This document shows, in pieces, positions 5,076-47,508 of a DNA stretch of 64,000 bases. This DNA comes from Novibacillus thermophilus (lineage in GTDB: Bacteria > Bacillota > Bacilli > Thermoactinomycetales > Novibacillaceae), in the NCBI RefSeq assembly GCF_002005165.1, contig NZ_CP019699.1, forward strand, positions 2,852,001 to 2,916,000, in the 5' to 3' direction. Position 1 is the first letter of the stretch, and every line of letters begins with the position of its first letter. Under the pieces are notes generated by a model. The model saw nothing but the letters and a program-made list of their open reading frames with translations. It did not search any database and had not been told where the DNA came from. The position numbers and the translations under genes were made by a program.

Positions 5076-6135
5076 CAGGCAAGGAGCGGCGTTTACGAAA
5101 AACGTTTTTGCAGGAAGAGGAAAAGTAACGGCGGCCATCGCGCAAATTTCACCGGTTTTCCTCGACAAGCAGCGCACGATTGAGAAAGCGATCGAGTACA
5201 TCCATCAAGCGGGAAAAAGGGGAGCCGATCTCGTCGTCTTCCCCGAGTCGTACATTCCGGCGTTTCCGTACTGGCAACAAGGAAACAATGACCCTGCCGT
5301 CGAGTGGTTTGAGATGAATGTTCTCTTTCAAAACGAATCCGTCGTCGTCGGCTCGGAAGACACCGAATCCTTAAGCAAGGCATCCAAAAGTGCCGGCATT
5401 AACGTCGTGATGGGATGTACAGAGCTTGATTACGCCGTCGGTTCTCGCACCCTCTACAATTCGATGCTTTATTTTGACCGCGAAGGGAATCTGTTCGGGC
5501 ATCACCGGAAAGTGATGCCCACTGGCCAAGAGAGAATTTTCCACGGAATGGGCGGTGGAGGCCGCAATTTAAAAGTGTACGATACAGACGTCGGGCGGCT
5601 CGGTGGCCTCATTTGTTGGGAGAATCACATGATTCTCATCCGGGCATTGATGGCGTATCAAGGGGAAGAAATTCATGTGGCGACGTGGCCAGGCACGTGG
5701 AGCGGAATGCCGACAGACGGTATGACGTACGTGGACAAAGAGTCGAAAAATCCCCAGTCGTATAACACGTGCGACTGGGAGCCTGCCATTCGTGCTCACG
5801 CCTTCGAAGCCCAGACGTTTGTCGTTAGTGCATGCGGCTATCAACCGGCAGAGGACGTCCCTGACAGTTTCCCGTATAAAAACAGAACAAATTGGGATTG
5901 GGCCAACGGTGGAAGCGCGATCGTCGACCCTTTCGGAAATTACGTCGTCGAGCCAGTGTACGACCGGGAGGAGCTCATCGTTGCTGAACTGGACGGAGAT
6001 CTCATTAAAGCGGCTAAAAGTGCGTTTGACCTCCTCGGACATTATTCCAGACCAGACCTGGTACAGCTTTTGTATCGTGACGTCGAGGACCCTCATTTAA
6101 TCCCTAAGAGCCAATTAGGTGAAGTCGACAGGTAA
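5062..6135 (+). CDS. Nitrilase (carbon-nitrogen hydrolase)
   Basis: Hydrolyses a nitrile to the carboxylic acid and ammonia. The Glu-Lys-Cys triad is visible: Glu in VVFPESYIPAFPYW (about residue 62), Lys in HHRKVMPTGQERIFHG, and Cys in GGLICWENHM; CWEN is the signature that separates true nitrilases from amidases. The ATG at 5062 or the in-frame GTG at 5056 may start it, and both overlap the permease end. At 357 residues the length is typical. It is followed by a second C-N hydrolase, so nitrile to acid or amide breakdown is a plausible pathway, probably giving ammonia under sigma-54 control. Confidence 0.88.
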   Translation: MESHNRQGAAFTKNVFAGRGKVTAAIAQISPVFLDKQRTIEKAIEYIHQAGKRGADLVVFPESYIPAFPYWQQGNNDPAVEWFEMNVLFQNESVVVGSEDTESLSKASKSAGINVVMGCTELDYAVGSRTLYNSMLYFDREGNLFGHHRKVMPTGQERIFHGMGGGGRNLKVYDTDVGRLGGLICWENHMILIRALMAYQGEEIHVATWPGTWSGMPTDGMTYVDKESKNPQSYNTCDWEPAIRAHAFEAQTFVVSACGYQPAEDVPDSFPYKNRTNWDWANGGSAIVDPFGNYVVEPVYDREELIVAELDGDLIKAAKSAFDLLGHYSRPDLVQLLYRDVEDPHLIPKSQLGEVDR

Positions 6136-6223
6136 ATGTTGGCGCCTTAACGATCGGATACTGCATGACATTAAAAACGAAAAGGAAAAGTGCAAAAAAT
6201 TTACCGAAAAGGGTGCATACACA

Positions 6224-7042
6224 GTGTGGTCATTAGCTGTCGTGCAGGACAATTTTAATCGAGGAGACACTTCTCACAACGTGCGACTGATGGAATCCTA
6301 CATTGTTTCGTGTGCAAGGGATCATCCGCAGGTGAAACTCATCCTGTTTCCGGAATTGGCCACGACAGGGTACCGTTTGACAGAAAAAGTAAAAGATGTA
6401 GCCGAATATGCTGAAGGACCGACATTTTCACACTTGTCGGCCCTCGCACAGAAATTCTGTTTGTACATTGGATACGGCTTTGTGGAAAAGGGCGGGGCCT
6501 CGTTACCGTCCACTTTTTACAACTCTATGAATTTTATCGGGCCGAATGGGGAAAGGTTGGCGACGTATCAAAAAATACACCTGACCCCTTTGGAAGAACA
6601 TCTATTTACACCGGGCAGACAGTTAGTAACAGTAGATACGGAAATGGGGCGATTCGGTCTGCTTATATGTTGGGATCTGGCTTTCCCGGAGTTGTCCCGA
6701 CTGTTGGCGTTGGAAGGCGCCGACGTTTTGCTAGCGCCGAGCGCGTGGGAAGTGCCCCACGATCAGTCCTATCGCCAGATGGCGTCTGCCCGGGCGTTGG
6801 ACAACGTCGTGTTTGTCGCCACATGTAACCATACAGGAAGGACGGATGATCTGAAATTTTTTGGCAAGTCGGCGATTTACGGTCCAGATGGGCGGACACT
6901 GAACGAAGCGAATCGGGAAGGTAGTGGCCTAGTCGTGTCAAAGATTGATTTAGGTGTTCGCCAACAGATGAAGGAAGGATTTTTTTCCATGTGGCGGGAT
7001 CGGCGAAACGATCTGTATGATGTACGGTGGAAAGGCAACTAG
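6224..7042 (+). CDS. Carbon-nitrogen hydrolase (amidase-like, nitrilase superfamily)
   Basis: Second member of the nitrilase superfamily, more like aliphatic amidases or carbamoyl hydrolases. The triad is Glu in LFPELATTGY, Lys in YQKIHLTPLEEHLF and Cys in LLICWDLAFPELSR; CWD rather than CWEN argues against nitrile hydrolysis. GTG 6224 is preferred because GGG-rich sequence lies about 10 bp upstream and the family core starts at once. An open extension back to 6119 overlaps the nitrilase but reads as unstructured, charged sequence. It probably processes an amide or ureide from the same catabolic route. Confidence 0.8.
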   Translation: MWSLAVVQDNFNRGDTSHNVRLMESYIVSCARDHPQVKLILFPELATTGYRLTEKVKDVAEYAEGPTFSHLSALAQKFCLYIGYGFVEKGGASLPSTFYNSMNFIGPNGERLATYQKIHLTPLEEHLFTPGRQLVTVDTEMGRFGLLICWDLAFPELSRLLALEGADVLLAPSAWEVPHDQSYRQMASARALDNVVFVATCNHTGRTDDLKFFGKSAIYGPDGRTLNEANREGSGLVVSKIDLGVRQQMKEGFFSMWRDRRNDLYDVRWKGN

Positions 7043-7100
7043 GTGCTAGGCGAGAGCTTTTAAAATGACAGTCATTTTTAGTCAAGAGGGTGAGGTTAAA

Positions 7101-8485
7101 ATGGGTCTCCTCGATGTCTTCGTCTTAACGGTGTATTTTGCTGCGTTAATGACAGTCGGCATTATCGGCACTAAAAAAGCAAAGACGTCAGAAATGTATA
7201 TGGTGGCCGGGAGAAATCTCGGAGTGTTTATGTTCTTCGGATGTCTGACGGCCGTCTTTCTTGGCGGCTCGTCGACCATCGGAACGGCTCAGCTCGGTTA
7301 TGAAAACGGAGTCTCCGGAGTGTGGTTTGTGTTTTCGATGGGTCTCGGCATTATGCTGTTTGGCCTTCTGCTGTACAAGCGGGTTACAGGTTATCAATTG
7401 ATGACCATTAGTGAATTTTTAGGGAAACGTTTTAACACGGGAGCCAAATTGATTGGTGCGACAGTGGCTGCTATATACGCTTTGATGGTCAGTGTCACAC
7501 AAGTGATCGCCATCGGTTCGATTTTGAATGCCGTATTCGGCTGGGATCTCACGGTCTCCATGTTGGTTGGAGGAGGAATCGTGTTTTTTTACACCGTCCT
7601 CGGCGGCATGTGGTCCGTCTCCATGACGGACATCATCCAATTCTCAGTCATGACGGTCGGGATATTTTTTGTCATGTTGCCGTTCAGTTTGTCCAAAGCG
7701 GGGGTTGGGGCCAACTGACCACACAGTTACCGAGTGCGTTTTTTGACTTCTCCGCTATCGGCTTTATGGAAATTGTACAGTACATTCTCCTCTACACACT
7801 CGGGATGATGGTGGGGCAAGACATCTGGCAACGTTATTTTACAGCGAAGAATATTAACGTTGCCCGGACAGGCGGGATCCTAGTCGGGGTGTACAGCTTG
7901 ATTTACTCTCTGGCAATGTGTGTCATCGGCATGTGCGCCGTGATCGTCTTACCTGACATCGAAAACACCCAAAACGTTTTTTCCTTAATGGCATTTGAAA
8001 CATTGCCTTCTGGCTTGCTGGGGATTGTTTTTGCGGCTGTCGCCTCGGCGATTATGTCCACGGCATCTGGAACATTGTTGGCTTCGTCAACACTCATTGC
8101 GAAAGACATACTGAAAGACCACTTCTTTCAAAATATATCGGACCAACAGTTTCTCTTCATATCGAGAGTGACGACTTTGGCTGCCGGAACTGCCGCTATC
8201 GCCATTGCCCTTTGGATTCAAGAACTCCTCGTCGCGATGGACGTCGCTTACGCAGTACTGGCAGGGTCCATCTTCGTCCCGATTGTTCTCGGTATGTTCT
8301 GGAAAAAGGTTACACCGAAAGCGGCATTTTATGCGATAACGTCAAGTGCCATCGTCGTGTTGATCACGCTTGCTCTTGAAGGATTTTCTTCCAACCATCC
8401 GATTTTGTACGGAATTGCCACGAATATTGTCGTGATGACAGCCGTTTCATGGATTGATTCATCGCGGAGCAAAATCTCAGCTTAA
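7101..8485 (+). pseudogene. Sodium:solute symporter (SSS family), frameshifted
   Basis: Sodium-driven importer of about 461 residues if repaired. The N-terminal part (7101-7718) has the SSS pattern AGRNLG, FLGGSSTIG and LGGMWSVSMTDIIQF. The C-terminal part (to 8485) continues with MMVGQDIWQRYFTAK and ASAIMSTASGTLLASS. The frame breaks at a G5 tract (7700-7704); adding one G joins the two as SKAG then WGQLTTQLPSAFF. RBS GAGGGTGAGG precedes ATG 7101. It is the last gene of the sigma-54 unit and a second uptake system beside the NCS1 permease. The break may be a real mutation, a slippage site or a sequencing error. Confidence 0.82.
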
Positions 8486-44365: not shown

Positions 44366-44393
44366 TTGACAGATATCTCTCTTGTGATATGAT
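44366..44393 (+). promoter_or_regulatory. Sigma-A promoter of the S-box operon
   Basis: TTGACA (44366-44371), 16-bp spacer and TATGAT (44388-44393), about 40 bp before the riboswitch. Confidence 0.85.
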
Positions 44394-44430
44394 TATTTCA
44401 AAGTCAGCAAAATGACATAGCAATTGTCTG

Positions 44431-44593
44431 CTTCTTATCCAGAGAGGGGGAGGGACTGACCCTATGAACTCTCGGCAACCAGCCGCAACGGCCCGGTGCC
44501 AATTTCAGAGGAATGGTTCATTCCGAAGATGAGAAGGCTTGACAAAATGTGCCGCGTTTTGTGAACCCTTCTCTTGTTGAGAAGGGTTTTATT
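44431..44593 (+). ncRNA. SAM-I riboswitch (S-box) with terminator
   Basis: The conserved S-box core is plain: CTTATCCAGAGAGG, GGAGGGACTGACCCTATGAA, CTCGGCAACC, CGGTGCCAATTTC and the closing GATGAGAAGG. The P1 helix joins CTTCTTATC (44431) with GATGAGAAG (44528). GAGAAGG (44531-44537) can pair with CCTTCTC (44567-44573) as antiterminator. That strand otherwise forms the terminator AACCCTTCTC/GAGAAGGGTT with T4 (44564-44590). High SAM therefore turns off the three sulfur genes downstream. Confidence 0.95.
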
Positions 44594-44672
44594 ACGTTAA
44601 AGGGGGATGCGGGAAAAGAAGGAACACACGGGTTTTGATGGCACGAAACATAAGATTGGAGAGGAGATTGAA

Positions 44673-45137
44673 ATGGCACGAAGTACATTTAAGGCAACCG
44701 CGCAATTAGGAGAAAAATTTCAAGTTCGGACACACTCGAGGGGCCACACGGTCATCGTCGACGAGCCAAAGGAGCTCGGCGGAACGGATCTGGGACAGAA
44801 TCCGGTGGAACTCATCCTTTCGGCCCTCGGAGCTTGCCAGTCCATCGTCATTCAGACTTACGCCGAGAAATTTGACATAACCGTTGACGCACTGCGCATC
44901 GAGCTGGAAGGAGATTTAGATTTAGACGGCTTTTTGGACAAATCGGACGTTCGCCCCGGTTTTTCCGACGTGAGGTATCAAGTGTTTTTGAAGACTGATG
45001 CGCCGGAAGCGAAAGTGAAAGAGTTTTTACAATTTGTCGAAGCCCACTGCCCGGTGGCGGATACGATTGCCCATCCAGTCAACCTCGTGTCCTCCGGTTT
45101 TGTCATTGAGAAAGATCAGCGTACTCCAACAACATAA
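44673..45137 (+). CDS. OsmC-family protein (peroxiredoxin-like)
   Basis: OsmC/Ohr-fold protein of 154 residues with the two conserved Cys, in LGACQSIVIQTYA and EAHCPVADTI. Such proteins reduce organic hydroperoxides or bind thiols; some are tied to sulfur metabolism. ATG 44673 follows GGAGAGGAG; the upstream in-frame region lacks a ribosome site. First gene under the SAM riboswitch, suggesting a job in handling sulfur compounds rather than general peroxide stress. Confidence 0.87.
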   Translation: MARSTFKATAQLGEKFQVRTHSRGHTVIVDEPKELGGTDLGQNPVELILSALGACQSIVIQTYAEKFDITVDALRIELEGDLDLDGFLDKSDVRPGFSDVRYQVFLKTDAPEAKVKEFLQFVEAHCPVADTIAHPVNLVSSGFVIEKDQRTPTT

Positions 45138-45170
45138 AAACGAAAAAAAGGTACACTTTTGGCAACACAC

Positions 45171-45220
45171 TCTTCACAAAGACATTTGGCACGGGTCCCA
45201 TCTCCCATAGGATCGGACCC
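45171..45220 (+). other. Intercistronic hairpin preceded by an 18-mer repeated after the operon
   Basis: TCTTCACAAAGACATTTG (45171-45188) recurs exactly at 46938-46955. Here it is followed by a GGGTCC/GGACCC hairpin (45193-45220), and there by the GCGCGCAAG terminator. The hairpin has no T-run, so it may limit or stabilise the message between the OsmC and monooxygenase genes. Confidence 0.5.
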
Positions 45221-45252
45221 ATCGAGGTTCATGATAAAGGAGATAGAAAACA

Positions 45253-46335
45253 TTGAGCGACATAAAGTTTGCTTATTGGGTGCCGAACGTGAGCGGAGGG
45301 CTCGTCATTTCCAGACTTCCGCAGCAAACAGACTGGACGTTTGAAGCAAACAAACGTTACGCCCAAACGGCAGAAGCAGTCGGCTTTGAATACGCCTTGT
45401 TGCAAACGCGTTTTATAGCGAACTACGGAGCAGAAAATCAACTAGAAGCAGCGACGCTAGCTGCTTCACTGGCCAGTGTCACTTCGAGGATTAAGCTTAT
45501 CTCCGCCGTCCTTCCCGGCCTTTGGCACCCTGGAGTTTATGCGAAGATGATCGCTACACTGGATCACATCAGTCGTGGCCGCGCCGCAGTCAATGTCGTC
45601 AGTGGTTGGTTTAAAGGCGAGTTTACTGGTTACGGCGAGCCGTGGCTTGAACACGACGAACGTTACCGCCGTTCGGAAGAATTCATTCGTGTGTTGCGGT
45701 CAATGTGGACAGAAGAGGAGACGACGTTTAAAGGGGACTTTTACCGGATAAACAGCGCCCCGCTCAAGCCGAAACCTATACACACTCCTCCGATTTTCCA
45801 AGGGGGAAATTCAAAGGCGGCCCGGCGGATGGCAGCACGCGTGTCCGACTGGTATTTCATGAACGGCAATACGCTGGACGGCCTCAAAGAACAAATTGAA
45901 GACGTCCGGTCCCTCGCCGAAGTCGAAGAACGCACACTGAACTTTGCCGTTAACGGTTTTGCTATCGTCCGCCCCACAGAATCAGAAGCCGTCCAAACCC
46001 TTCGGGAAATCGTGTCACATAGAGATGAGGAAGCTGTAAGAGGTTTCAGTGAATCGGTCAAAGAAGCCGGTCAGTCCACGAAGGAGAGGGACGGGATGTG
46101 GGCCAATTCTTCCCTTGAAGACCTCGTGCAGTACAATGACGGTTTTAAAACGGGGTTAATTGGGACGCCTGAGCAAGTGGCTGATCGCATCATCGAACTT
46201 AAGAAGATCGGAGTGGATTTAGTACTCGTCGGTTTCCTTCATTATGAGACCGACTTGGAAGCGTTCGGGGAAGACGTGATCCCGCTCGTCCGAGAAAAAG
46301 AGCAGGCTTTGAGAGACAGAGGAGTGGTGGTGTGA
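45253..46335 (+). CDS. FMNH2-dependent sulfone monooxygenase (SfnG-like)
   Basis: Class C (luciferase-like) flavin monooxygenase of 360 residues. The stretches LLQTRFIANYGAENQLEA, PGLWHPGVYAKMIATLDHIS, NVVSGWFKGEFTGYGEPWLE and RYRRSEEFIRVL are the pattern of dimethylsulfone monooxygenase SfnG and related enzymes, which free sulfur from sulfones or sulfonates. TTG 45253 follows AAAGGAGATAG. It overlaps the reductase gene by 4 nt, and the reductase would supply its FMNH2. S-box control fits sulfur scavenging when SAM is low. Confidence 0.87.
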   Translation: MSDIKFAYWVPNVSGGLVISRLPQQTDWTFEANKRYAQTAEAVGFEYALLQTRFIANYGAENQLEAATLAASLASVTSRIKLISAVLPGLWHPGVYAKMIATLDHISRGRAAVNVVSGWFKGEFTGYGEPWLEHDERYRRSEEFIRVLRSMWTEEETTFKGDFYRINSAPLKPKPIHTPPIFQGGNSKAARRMAARVSDWYFMNGNTLDGLKEQIEDVRSLAEVEERTLNFAVNGFAIVRPTESEAVQTLREIVSHRDEEAVRGFSESVKEAGQSTKERDGMWANSSLEDLVQYNDGFKTGLIGTPEQVADRIIELKKIGVDLVLVGFLHYETDLEAFGEDVIPLVREKEQALRDRGVVV

Positions 46336-46919
46336 GACTGTTAGGTTTGTCGGGAAGTTTGACACCGCGCTCTAAAACGTACATCGCCGTCGAACAGGCG
46401 CTCACATTCGCTAAAGCGTACGATGCGTCGGTGGCGACGGACCTCATCAGTTTGCGGGATTATAAACTGTCGTTTTGTGACGGCAGAGATCCAAAACTGT
46501 ATGAGGGGGATACGAAGCAGGTCATTCAAAAAATAGAAAATGCCGATGCGCTCATCGTCGGAACACCTGTCTATCGCGGTTCGTATACGGGAGCGCTAAA
46601 AAACGTGTTTGACCTCATACCCAATGGCGCCTTGGAAGGGAAGGTGGTCGGCTTAATTGCCACTGGTGGAACGTACCACCATTTTCTGGCCATTGAACAC
46701 CAGCTAAAACCACTTTTCGGCTTTTTCCGCGCCCACGTCGTACCGGGTACGGTCTATGCCCACAACGACCACTATTCCGACAAGAGGTTGGTCGATCCTG
46801 ACGTTATCGAACGCCTGCGTCGCCTCGGAGAAGATGTCGTCAGATTGCAGTATGCGATCGGAGGCGGCTTGGCAGGTGCGGAGGCTCCGCCCATTCCGAG
46901 AAAAGCATTGAAAAGGTGA
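46332..46919 (+). CDS. NAD(P)H-dependent FMN reductase (MsuE/SsuE-like)
   Basis: Flavodoxin-like reductase of 195 residues. It has the N-terminal GLSGSLTPRSKTYI phosphate loop and GTPVYRGSYTGALKNVFDL, both FMN-binding segments typical of SsuE/MsuE. It should deliver reduced FMN to the monooxygenase encoded just before it. GTG 46332 overlaps the upstream stop (GTGTGA). A perfect 11-bp hairpin covers its own stop codon. Confidence 0.9.
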   Translation: MRLLGLSGSLTPRSKTYIAVEQALTFAKAYDASVATDLISLRDYKLSFCDGRDPKLYEGDTKQVIQKIENADALIVGTPVYRGSYTGALKNVFDLIPNGALEGKVVGLIATGGTYHHFLAIEHQLKPLFGFFRAHVVPGTVYAHNDHYSDKRLVDPDVIERLRRLGEDVVRLQYAIGGGLAGAEAPPIPRKALKR

Positions 46920-46988
46920 AGAAGGTAGGCAGCACCTTCTTCACAAAGACATTTGCGCGCAAGGTTTCTCTTGCGCGCCTTTATTTTA
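46916..46988 (+). terminator. Tandem hairpins ending the S-box operon
   Basis: First hairpin: GTGAAGAAGGT (46916-46926) with ACCTTCTTCAC (46934-46944), perfect and overlapping the stop codon. Second: GCGCGCAAG (46955-46963) with CTTGCGCGC (46970-46978), followed by CTTTATTTT; this one is a clear terminator. The 46989-47310 stretch has no gene; an AAAAGGAGGATC motif on the minus strand near 47130-47143 resembles a ribosome site but leads to no convincing frame. Confidence 0.88.
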
Positions 46989-47310
46989 GCACAGGTTCCG
47001 CAATTCGTCATTGTGGCGAACGAGAGCCCTGCATGCCCTCGAATATGATGGACGGAAGGGGTTGTGCTTGCTGCAAAATGGCTCACAAACCGAATGTCTT
47101 TCAGCATTCGATTGTGGTAGCTAAAATAGATCCTCCTTTTTAAAGGCGTTCACTAAATCTATGGCAGTGATGGCCAGTCGTTAAGTGCATAGGGGAACAA
47201 ATGTTTGTTTAATTTGAAAAATATGATAGAATATCATTAGTACAATAGGTTGGGCTCCTCAAGGGTGGTCGGCTCACTCCTGACCCCATCAGGGAAGGGG
47301 GTGAGGACGT

Positions 47311-47391
47311 ATGGACGCCTATCAAGTGTTAACGCTTCTGATATTGTTCGGAACGTTAGTCGCCGTGATGATGTCCGACAAAAGCAAGTAG
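47311..47391 (+). CDS. 26-residue putative holin-like toxin
   Basis: A tiny frame with ribosome site GGGGGTGAGG before ATG 47311. The peptide MDAYQVLTLLILFGTLVAVM followed by MSDKSK has a short N-terminus, one membrane helix and a charged tail, as in the putative holin-like toxins of Firmicutes type I toxin-antitoxin loci. The leader (47250-47300) and the region after the stop are rich in hairpins, as expected for an RNA-controlled toxin. An antisense antitoxin RNA was not identified. Confidence 0.75.
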   Translation: MDAYQVLTLLILFGTLVAVMMSDKSK

Positions 47392-47423
47392 ATCACCCTT
47401 GAGCTTGTCGGCTGGGTGATCTA
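47389..47423 (+). repeat. Hairpin starting at the toxin stop codon
   Basis: TAGATCACCC (47389-47398, including the stop) pairs perfectly with GGGTGATCTA (47414-47423). It may stabilise the toxin message or be the target of an antisense RNA. Confidence 0.75.
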
Positions 47424-47476
47424 CCTCGGCTGACTGTTTGAGCCTGCCCCCTTGAAGGGCGGCTTATTGTACATGG

Positions 47477-47508
47477 ACCGCAGGTGTTGGCCGCACCTGC
47501 GGTTATTT
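47477..47508 (+). terminator. Terminator of the toxin transcript
   Basis: CCGCAGGTG (47478-47486) pairs with CACCTGCGG (47494-47502), followed by TTATTT. Confidence 0.8.

Follow-up and report, generated by a model that had tools for sequence, protein, structure and literature searches.

Gene content and leader of the locus

The 64,000-nucleotide stretch of the Novibacillus thermophilus genome analyzed here (the window; contig NZ_CP019699.1, positions 2,852,001 to 2,916,000) contains an S-box, the aptamer of the SAM-I class of S-adenosylmethionine (SAM) riboswitches, upstream of three genes. These encode an OsmC-like protein, a member of the SfnG family of dimethylsulfone (DMSO2) monooxygenases, and a flavin mononucleotide (FMN) reductase. 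We propose, with a probability of roughly 0.78, that the riboswitch attenuates transcription of an organosulfur-scavenging operon. The proposal builds on computed switch architecture, gene families, linkage and conservation. The principal features, in window coordinates, are the following.

44366..44393, + strand: predicted sigma-A promoter, TTGACA-16-TATGAT with TG, 11/12 consensus matches
44432..44535, + strand: SAM-I riboswitch aptamer (S-box), RF00162 83.5 bits over model positions 1-108 (gathering cut-off 44.4)
44531..44573, + strand: predicted antiterminator, in which the 3′ strand of helix P1, GAGAAGG (44531-44537), pairs with CCTTCTC (44567-44573)
44564..44588, + strand: predicted intrinsic terminator of the riboswitch, arms 44564-44573 and 44579-44588, then TTATTA
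44673..45137, + strand: osmC-like gene, 154 amino acids (aa), two conserved cysteines, PF02566 80.7 bits
45253..46335, + strand: sfnG, 360 aa, TTG start, FMNH2-dependent dimethylsulfone monooxygenase family, TIGR04021 586.9 bits
46332..46919, + strand: NADPH-dependent FMN reductase family gene, 195 aa, GTG start, MsuE-like, PF03358 123 bits
46955..46978, + strand: operon terminator-like hairpin, 10 pairs, 7 of them GC, then CTTTATTTTA

The aptamer matches the RF00162 model over its full length (E 3.1e-18). The motif CCTTCTC is common to the predicted antiterminator (44528-44573, folding energy -20.0 kcal/mol) and the predicted terminator (-15.9 kcal/mol), and the platform test of P1 against the terminator came out positive in the folding prediction. 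The hairpin at 44564-44588 was not among the results of a consensus terminator scan, because only a short run of U follows the extended stem. The promoter match is weak on its own, because five promoter-like sites occur in the region against 2.9 expected; what weight the call may have comes from the position of the site rather than from the match. An S-box at this spot is unlikely to be due to chance, because nine occur in the 3.63-Mb genome; the pairing also recurs in other genomes. A perfect complement of 6-9 nucleotides (nt) between the P1 3′ strand and a terminator hairpin is present in six of the eight other S-box-SfnG loci described below (L027, L028, L029, L030, L033, L036). The complement is just 5 nt in L026, and the same script found no such terminator hairpin after the S-box of L042.

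The spermidine riboswitch, a SAM-I variant with nucleotides changed in J1/2 and the P3 internal loop, was also considered; the genes reported for it are polyamine genes (PMC10853860). The aptamer is close to the SAM-I consensus in both regions, a comparison made with that consensus rather than with the exact bases of the variant, and the variant class is not favored.

The initial annotation had read this leader as an S-box and the genes as encoding OsmC-like, SfnG-like and flavin reductase proteins, and the family models bear out all four assignments. SfnG scores well above the equivalog cut-off of TIGR04021 (382.95). Among solved structures its best match is the dimethylsulfone monooxygenase 8t0u (E 2.1e-141), and it is 56% identical to SfnG of Pseudomonas sp. 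BCA17. The reductase gene overlaps sfnG by 4 bases and encodes a member of superfamily PF03358 whose best solved relative is 4c76. The OsmC-like protein exceeds the gathering threshold of PF02566 (27.5), and both of its cysteines, which we take to be catalytic, align with those of eight other OsmC-family sequences. AG-rich Shine-Dalgarno stretches lie upstream of the gene starts.

Distribution of S-box-linked SfnG

We examined 85 SfnG loci besides the window, comprising L022-L026 from genome searches and the best 80 of 582 from a contig search. L024 carries a more distant SfnG-like protein, which is left out of the locus counts and serves as outgroup; L022-L026 span about 4 kb each, and partners are therefore undercounted in them. 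With a model derived from the nine N. thermophilus S-boxes, S-boxes were detected in eight of the 85 loci (L026, L027, L028, L029, L030, L033, L036 and L042), all eight confirmed by Rfam. The Rfam run covered 58 loci and the S-box model alone the remaining 27; among the 58, the 50 loci apart from these eight yielded no additional SAM riboswitch, whatever the class.

The S-box lies directly before sfnG in L026, L027, L028, L030, L033 and L036, the last of which has two copies. In L029 (Bacillus fonticola), tandem S-boxes are followed by metNIQ-like genes, a peptidase-like gene, a 358-nt gap and the sfnG-reductase pair, and co-control of sfnG there is less sure. A Bacillaceae-1 RNA (RF01690) lies just upstream of sfnG in this locus (L029 5849-5916). 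L042, from a Thermomicrobiales metagenome-assembled genome (MAG), has an S-box followed by ssu-type genes, a nitroreductase-like gene (named by eye), sfnG, a reductase gene and osmC. The initial annotation had suggested looking for the same gene set after S-boxes in other genomes: the pairing of S-box and SfnG recurs, but OsmC accompanies it only in L042 among these eight loci.

In a maximum likelihood tree of 86 rows, the N. thermophilus SfnG and those of L027-L030, L033 and L036 form one clade (support 100/95), which is sister to 16 SfnGs of the same phylum without an S-box (99/92). Outside this clade are the SfnGs of L042 and of L026, the latter from a different class of the same phylum; the S-box label requires three changes on the tree. 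The closest relative of the N. thermophilus protein is that of Lentibacillus halodurans (81.7% identity), whose leader also resembles the one in the window (73.8% over 233 aligned positions). SfnGs from the same order as N. thermophilus (G017, G037) fall in the other clade, a pattern that suggests horizontal transfer. The gene is rare, being found in 3/42 genomes of the order and 3/398 sampled genomes of the phylum (N. thermophilus counted in both).

The seven other S-box-SfnG genomes contain 71 aptamers, or 68 leaders when three tandem pairs are counted once each. A luciferase-like (LLM) flavin monooxygenase gene lies downstream in 13 of the 68 (about 6 kb fetched), with one, L207, uncertain. 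The 13 comprise seven SfnG, four NtaA/DmoA-type and two SfnG-like genes under the cut-off; downstream genes were named by similarity to 22 queries, and others may be missed. The two SfnG-like genes (L189 4753-5805 and L245 4701-5720 on the minus strand; 273 and 195 bits) possibly encode new relatives of the family. In L198 and L228 other S-box monooxygenase genes stand upstream of methionine-importer-like genes. With S-boxes beside sfnG in nine loci, and these further S-box-LLM monooxygenase operons, the gene content lends support to the link to low SAM and organosulfur use that the initial annotation had drawn.

S-box regulon of N. thermophilus

Searching 3,629,225 bases of the N. thermophilus genome with RF00162 returned nine S-boxes in eight leaders, three of which, including that of the sfnG operon, precede LLM flavin monooxygenase genes. 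One leader precedes a 457-aa NtaA/DmoA-family monooxygenase (over the cut-off) and then a sodium:solute-symporter-like gene; another precedes an SsuE-type FMN reductase and a second NtaA/DmoA-family monooxygenase, both over the cut-off. A tandem pair lies before an SsuA-family gene (over the cut-off), an SsuC-like permease gene and an ATP-binding cassette (ABC) ATPase gene:

L016 1501-1611 and 1675-1784: tandem S-boxes before ssu-type genes

The SsuC-like permease gene (L016 2876-3763) is split over two frames (157 + 127 codons) and is apparently broken. Tandem S-boxes were seen too in L188, L195, L207 and L256.

The remaining leaders precede a symporter-like gene with MetQ-, MetN- and MetI-like genes (MetI named by eye) and a lactate-oxidase-like gene; MetY, a homocysteine synthase (over the cut-off); MetN-, MetI- and MetQ-like genes; and, at L018 8572-8693, genes for a major facilitator superfamily transporter, an acyl-CoA synthetase and an enoyl-CoA hydratase. 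The MetN proteins of N. thermophilus score under the cut-off of their model. The L018 acyl-CoA synthetase exceeds the cut-off of PRK08162 and falls short of the 3-(methylthio)propionyl-CoA ligase model (324 vs 822 bits); these genes might form a methylthio-acid degradation set. Elsewhere in the genome, a clustered regularly interspaced short palindromic repeat (CRISPR) array with 32 repeat matches (L021 3823-5927) adjoins an Atu2307-family monooxygenase gene.

Proposed function of the operon

From these data we infer a SAM response, a substrate, a role for OsmC and co-transcription of the three genes. When SAM is plentiful, P1 would be held, the terminator at 44564-44588 would form and transcription would stop; at low SAM, the 5′ arm of the terminator would instead be taken up by the 3′ strand of P1 and RNA polymerase would read through, so that all three proteins are produced. 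FMNH2 from the reductase would serve SfnG, which would oxidize a methylated sulfur compound, in the simplest case dimethylsulfone to methanesulfinate and formaldehyde. OsmC, which has two cysteines and belongs to a thiol-peroxidase family, would most likely clear peroxides arising from uncoupled flavin chemistry or thiol shortage. Since the S-box regulon also holds NtaA/DmoA-family monooxygenases, ssu importer genes, MetY and two methionine-importer sets, the sulfur is presumably destined for methionine. The operon thus most likely scavenges a methylated sulfur compound at low SAM.

Observations that weigh against the proposal

Several observations weigh against this proposal, and the first of them concern the genes themselves. 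The OsmC-like protein scores 81.2 bits with NF041052, under the cut-off of 95, and so falls outside the OsmC-related (seleno)protein family as that model defines it. The reductase scores 149.9 bits with TIGR03566 (MsuE), where the cut-off is 212.5, and in L030, L033 and L036 no reductase gene adjoins sfnG. OsmC is present in just two of the nine S-box-SfnG loci, the window and L042. Finally, osmC and sfnG are separated by a 115-bp gap that holds a weak promoter-like site, and a direct repeat flanks the sfnG-reductase pair.

45161..45188, + strand: 28-nt direct repeat, copy 1, between osmC and sfnG, 89% identical over 28 nt to copy 2
45186-45213: weak promoter-like site between osmC and sfnG
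46928..46955, + strand: 28-nt direct repeat, copy 2, after the reductase gene

Seventeen nt of the repeat are exact (mean of 0.00 expected from shuffles), and its 14-nt core occurs in 5/266 fetched loci, all covering this same place. The layout looks as if the sfnG-reductase pair had been inserted behind osmC, in which case the S-box could control osmC only and the pair could have its own promoter, at the weak site in the gap; the S-box-osmC unit that stands alone in genome G583 would fit such an arrangement. No + strand terminator-like site was found between osmC and sfnG, although the consensus scan behind this negative also overlooked the terminator of the riboswitch. At seven further loci an S-box precedes sfnG, or the operon containing it, with no intact osmC. 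One of them, the close relative L027, has a similar leader ahead of sfnG and just a possible scrap of osmC. That scrap, in the right place in Lentibacillus (tblastn E 0.31 over 19 residues), is only suggestive of an osmC remnant. Control of osmC alone is, in our judgement, very improbable. Just past the operon, at 47241-47501, lies a BsrG-type RNA (type I toxin-antitoxin) with a 26-codon peptide frame (47311-47391), and a BsrG-type RNA likewise lies behind the S-box-sfnG operon of Mesobacillus harenae (L028 7782-8027); the arrangement is perhaps a shared mobile block.

N. thermophilus has three OsmC-family genes, and by position the operon copy alone lies near an S-box. Relatives (E up to 1e-15) occur in 120/398 genomes of the class, and among 30 OsmC loci checked for an S-box two are positive, N. 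thermophilus and L126 (G583); members of this OsmC family are hence not generally under S-box control. In G583 the S-box lies directly before osmC (64% identity) and the next gene is on the opposite strand; this genome has a sulfite reductase, which speaks against tying S-box-osmC to the absence of that enzyme. In G787 an S-box precedes a symporter-like and an OsmC-family gene; in L042 osmC lies behind the reductase gene, and in a Methylococcus MAG it lies just before sfnG with no S-box.

The operon could be mainly protective, low SAM or methionine meaning few thiols and the OsmC and flavin system detoxifying peroxides or reactive sulfur with no feeding of sulfur. OsmC alone under an S-box in G583, and osmC as the most induced gene of sulfur-limited Pelagibacter, where it lies behind SAM riboswitches (PMC5069961), fit that idea. 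SfnG, however, is under an S-box without OsmC in 7/9 loci, and the monooxygenase genes placed before methionine-importer-like genes in L198 and L228 point to supply; a mainly protective operon has a very low probability.

A further difficulty for organosulfur scavenging lies in the steps after SfnG. In Pseudomonas-type DMSO2 assimilation as described in PMC13352529, methanesulfinate passes through MsuC and then MsuD/SsuD to sulfite. We found no SsuD or MsuD in the N. thermophilus genome, and none of its seven PF00296 matches (six typed, the seventh a 113-aa frame) is an SsuD. Nor was an MsuC- or SfnB-type enzyme found in the genome: TIGR04022 matches six acyl-CoA dehydrogenases with a best score of 113.8 bits, against 274-316 for four MsuC/DszC-type proteins of other SfnG loci and 634 for an SfnB, and these dehydrogenases score at most 53 bits against the four MsuC/DszC types and at most 76 against SfnB. 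By these searches the genome lies outside the Pseudomonas-type DMSO2 pathway as defined by MsuC plus MsuD/SsuD. A long CysI-type sulfite reductase was likewise not found in the genome, where the sole sulfite/nitrite reductase-like match is a 231-aa single-domain NIR_SIR protein (L123 1201-1896, a 233-aa frame). Small single-domain proteins of this kind are sulfite reductases in some anaerobes, so N. thermophilus, and also G786 with just a 224-aa sulfite/nitrite reductase-like frame, may still use sulfite.

With no MsuC- or MsuD/SsuD-type enzyme found, methanesulfinate would have no known successor enzyme in N. thermophilus, and by the predicted gene complement the conversion of DMSO2 to sulfite is not completed by the enzymes found. 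Because the known route looks broken, DMSO2 may not be the substrate, or the sulfur may leave in another way. The sulfur release suggested by the initial annotation is not borne out; of its "sulfone or sulfonate" substrate, the sulfone half is favored by SfnG, and the sulfonate half is not, as no SsuD/MsuD was found and the permease gene of the S-box ssu importer lies in two frames.

The same pattern extends to other genomes. SsuD/MsuD was found genome-wide in 0/8 S-box-SfnG genomes (N. thermophilus and seven others; TIGR03565 at E up to 1e-60 gave 0/7 for the latter) vs 3/3 genomes with SfnG not under an S-box, all three of which carry S-boxes elsewhere; a sulfite/nitrite reductase frame of at least 548 aa was found in 1/8 (G785) vs 3/3. 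The S-box-SfnG set leaves aside the L042 genome, and the completeness of G784-G789 is not stated; the Fisher values of 0.006, 0.024 and 0.009 overstate independence, because the six Bacillaceae/Fictibacillaceae S-box rows and N. thermophilus form one clade.

At the locus level, 65 of the 76 SfnG loci without an S-box have an acyl-CoA-dehydrogenase-fold flavoprotein, a count that includes not just MsuC and SfnB types but also plain members of the L022 type, and 41 have SsuD, as detected with a single reference (L156); 67 have at least one of the two and nine have neither (L041, L045, L050, L057, L066, L083, L093, L101, L105). MsuC, the methanesulfinate monooxygenase, is the best solved relative of the L071 and L040 flavoproteins, L053 has an SfnB and L022 a plainer acyl-CoA dehydrogenase. 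Neither SsuD nor, at 250 bits, a flavoprotein of this fold was found in the eight S-box loci; L029 has one match of 155 bits. The split is so far consistent: SfnG with SsuD lacks an S-box, and S-box-SfnG occurs where no SsuD was found in the genome. The L057 SfnG, sister of the S-box SfnG of L042, is an exception; that Microvirga locus (5965-7685) pairs SfnG with an MsuE-like reductase, with no S-box, SsuD or MsuC-type gene in 13 kb.

These data also bear on whether the operon simply places the canonical route, from DMSO2 through methanesulfinate, methanesulfonate and sulfite to sulfide, under an S-box. SfnG is a full family member with an MsuE-like reductase, G785 has a long sulfite reductase frame, and just four SfnG columns split the S-box clade from the 16 sister-clade proteins. 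The most suggestive column, 87, is not specific: His at this position was considered as a specificity mark, but it is common (61/86 rows) and N. thermophilus has Leu; Glu 133 was set aside as also common. The residues confined to the S-box clade are Phe 329 (6/7, not N. thermophilus) and Ala 232 (7/7). Given the enzymes not found in N. thermophilus, and SsuD in 0/7 and a long sulfite reductase frame in 1/7 of the other S-box-SfnG genomes tested, we consider the canonical route improbable.

A tentative, and on balance rather unlikely, extension of the scavenging proposal is that S-box-SfnG marks a sulfite-independent route from methylated sulfur compounds to methionine, in bacteria without MsuD/SsuD and mostly without a CysI-type sulfite reductase. 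A C1-sulfur fragment, produced by SfnG and by the DmoA-type enzymes of the S-box regulon, would be used as a thiol or a sulfinate; the S-box-controlled MetY could, for instance, condense methanethiol with O-acetylhomoserine, and OsmC would act as a partner that depends on thiols. This extension is weakened because G583, with its lone S-box-osmC, has a sulfite reductase, and because both partner enzymes are likewise missing from 9/76 SfnG loci that have no S-box.

Comparison with known systems

S-box control of organosulfur genes is of a known kind. In Bacillus methanolicus MGA3, S-box operons include (SAM)-dmoA and (SAM)-(PyrR)-BMMGA3_03030-ssuA1-ssuC1-ssuB1-acsA1-thrA (PMC4342826), so that there, as in N. 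thermophilus, SAM-I riboswitches precede both an LLM monooxygenase for organosulfur compounds and an importer of the ssu type. In contrast to N. thermophilus, the B. methanolicus table names neither SfnG nor a reductase pair nor OsmC behind an S-box, and it lists several S-box genes as of unknown function (PMC4342826). The control that the initial annotation called unusual is less so in light of these operons and of osmC behind SAM riboswitches in Pelagibacter (PMC5069961). The present operon would extend the S-box regulon to sulfone use.

The sfnFG/msuEDC genes of Pseudomonas are alike in pairing an SfnG relative with a flavin reductase, and a protein regulator controls them. MsuC and MsuD complete the route there, whereas N. 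thermophilus has a SAM riboswitch in front and neither enzyme was found in its genome. SfnG of Pseudomonas is reported to be driven by MsuE (PMC13352529). The sister-clade SfnG loci of Paenibacillus, Psychrobacillus, Kurthia and others, although of the same phylum, have no S-box in the fetched loci; they include SsuD in 9/16 and an acyl-CoA-dehydrogenase-fold flavoprotein in 12/16, with neither in 13 kb of L041 and L045. No report of S-box-sfnG, of its clade or of the absence of SsuD that goes with it turned up in the literature searched, which lacked most subscription journals, and within that literature they are new. The S-box/SsuD split reveals a gap in DMSO2 assimilation as described in textbooks.

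The closest parallel for OsmC is Candidatus Pelagibacter ubique, in which bhmT-osmC lies behind SAM riboswitches (PMC5069961, PMC2704228). This organism is said to be without assimilatory sulfate reduction, and its osmC is reported as the most induced transcript (50-fold) under sulfur limitation (PMC5069961). In both organisms osmC stands behind SAM riboswitches, and OsmC is a recurrent member of SAM-riboswitch regulons. The riboswitches of Pelagibacter are, however, of the SAM-II/SAM-V classes and the partner is BhmT, whereas in N. thermophilus the class is SAM-I and the partner a monooxygenase, and the OsmC proteins are likened by family only. The operon offers a direct test of OsmC under sulfur limitation, a role also open in Pelagibacter. 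If the sulfite-independent route exists, OsmC under SAM riboswitches in Bacillota and Pelagibacter would represent a shared answer to organic-sulfur shortage.

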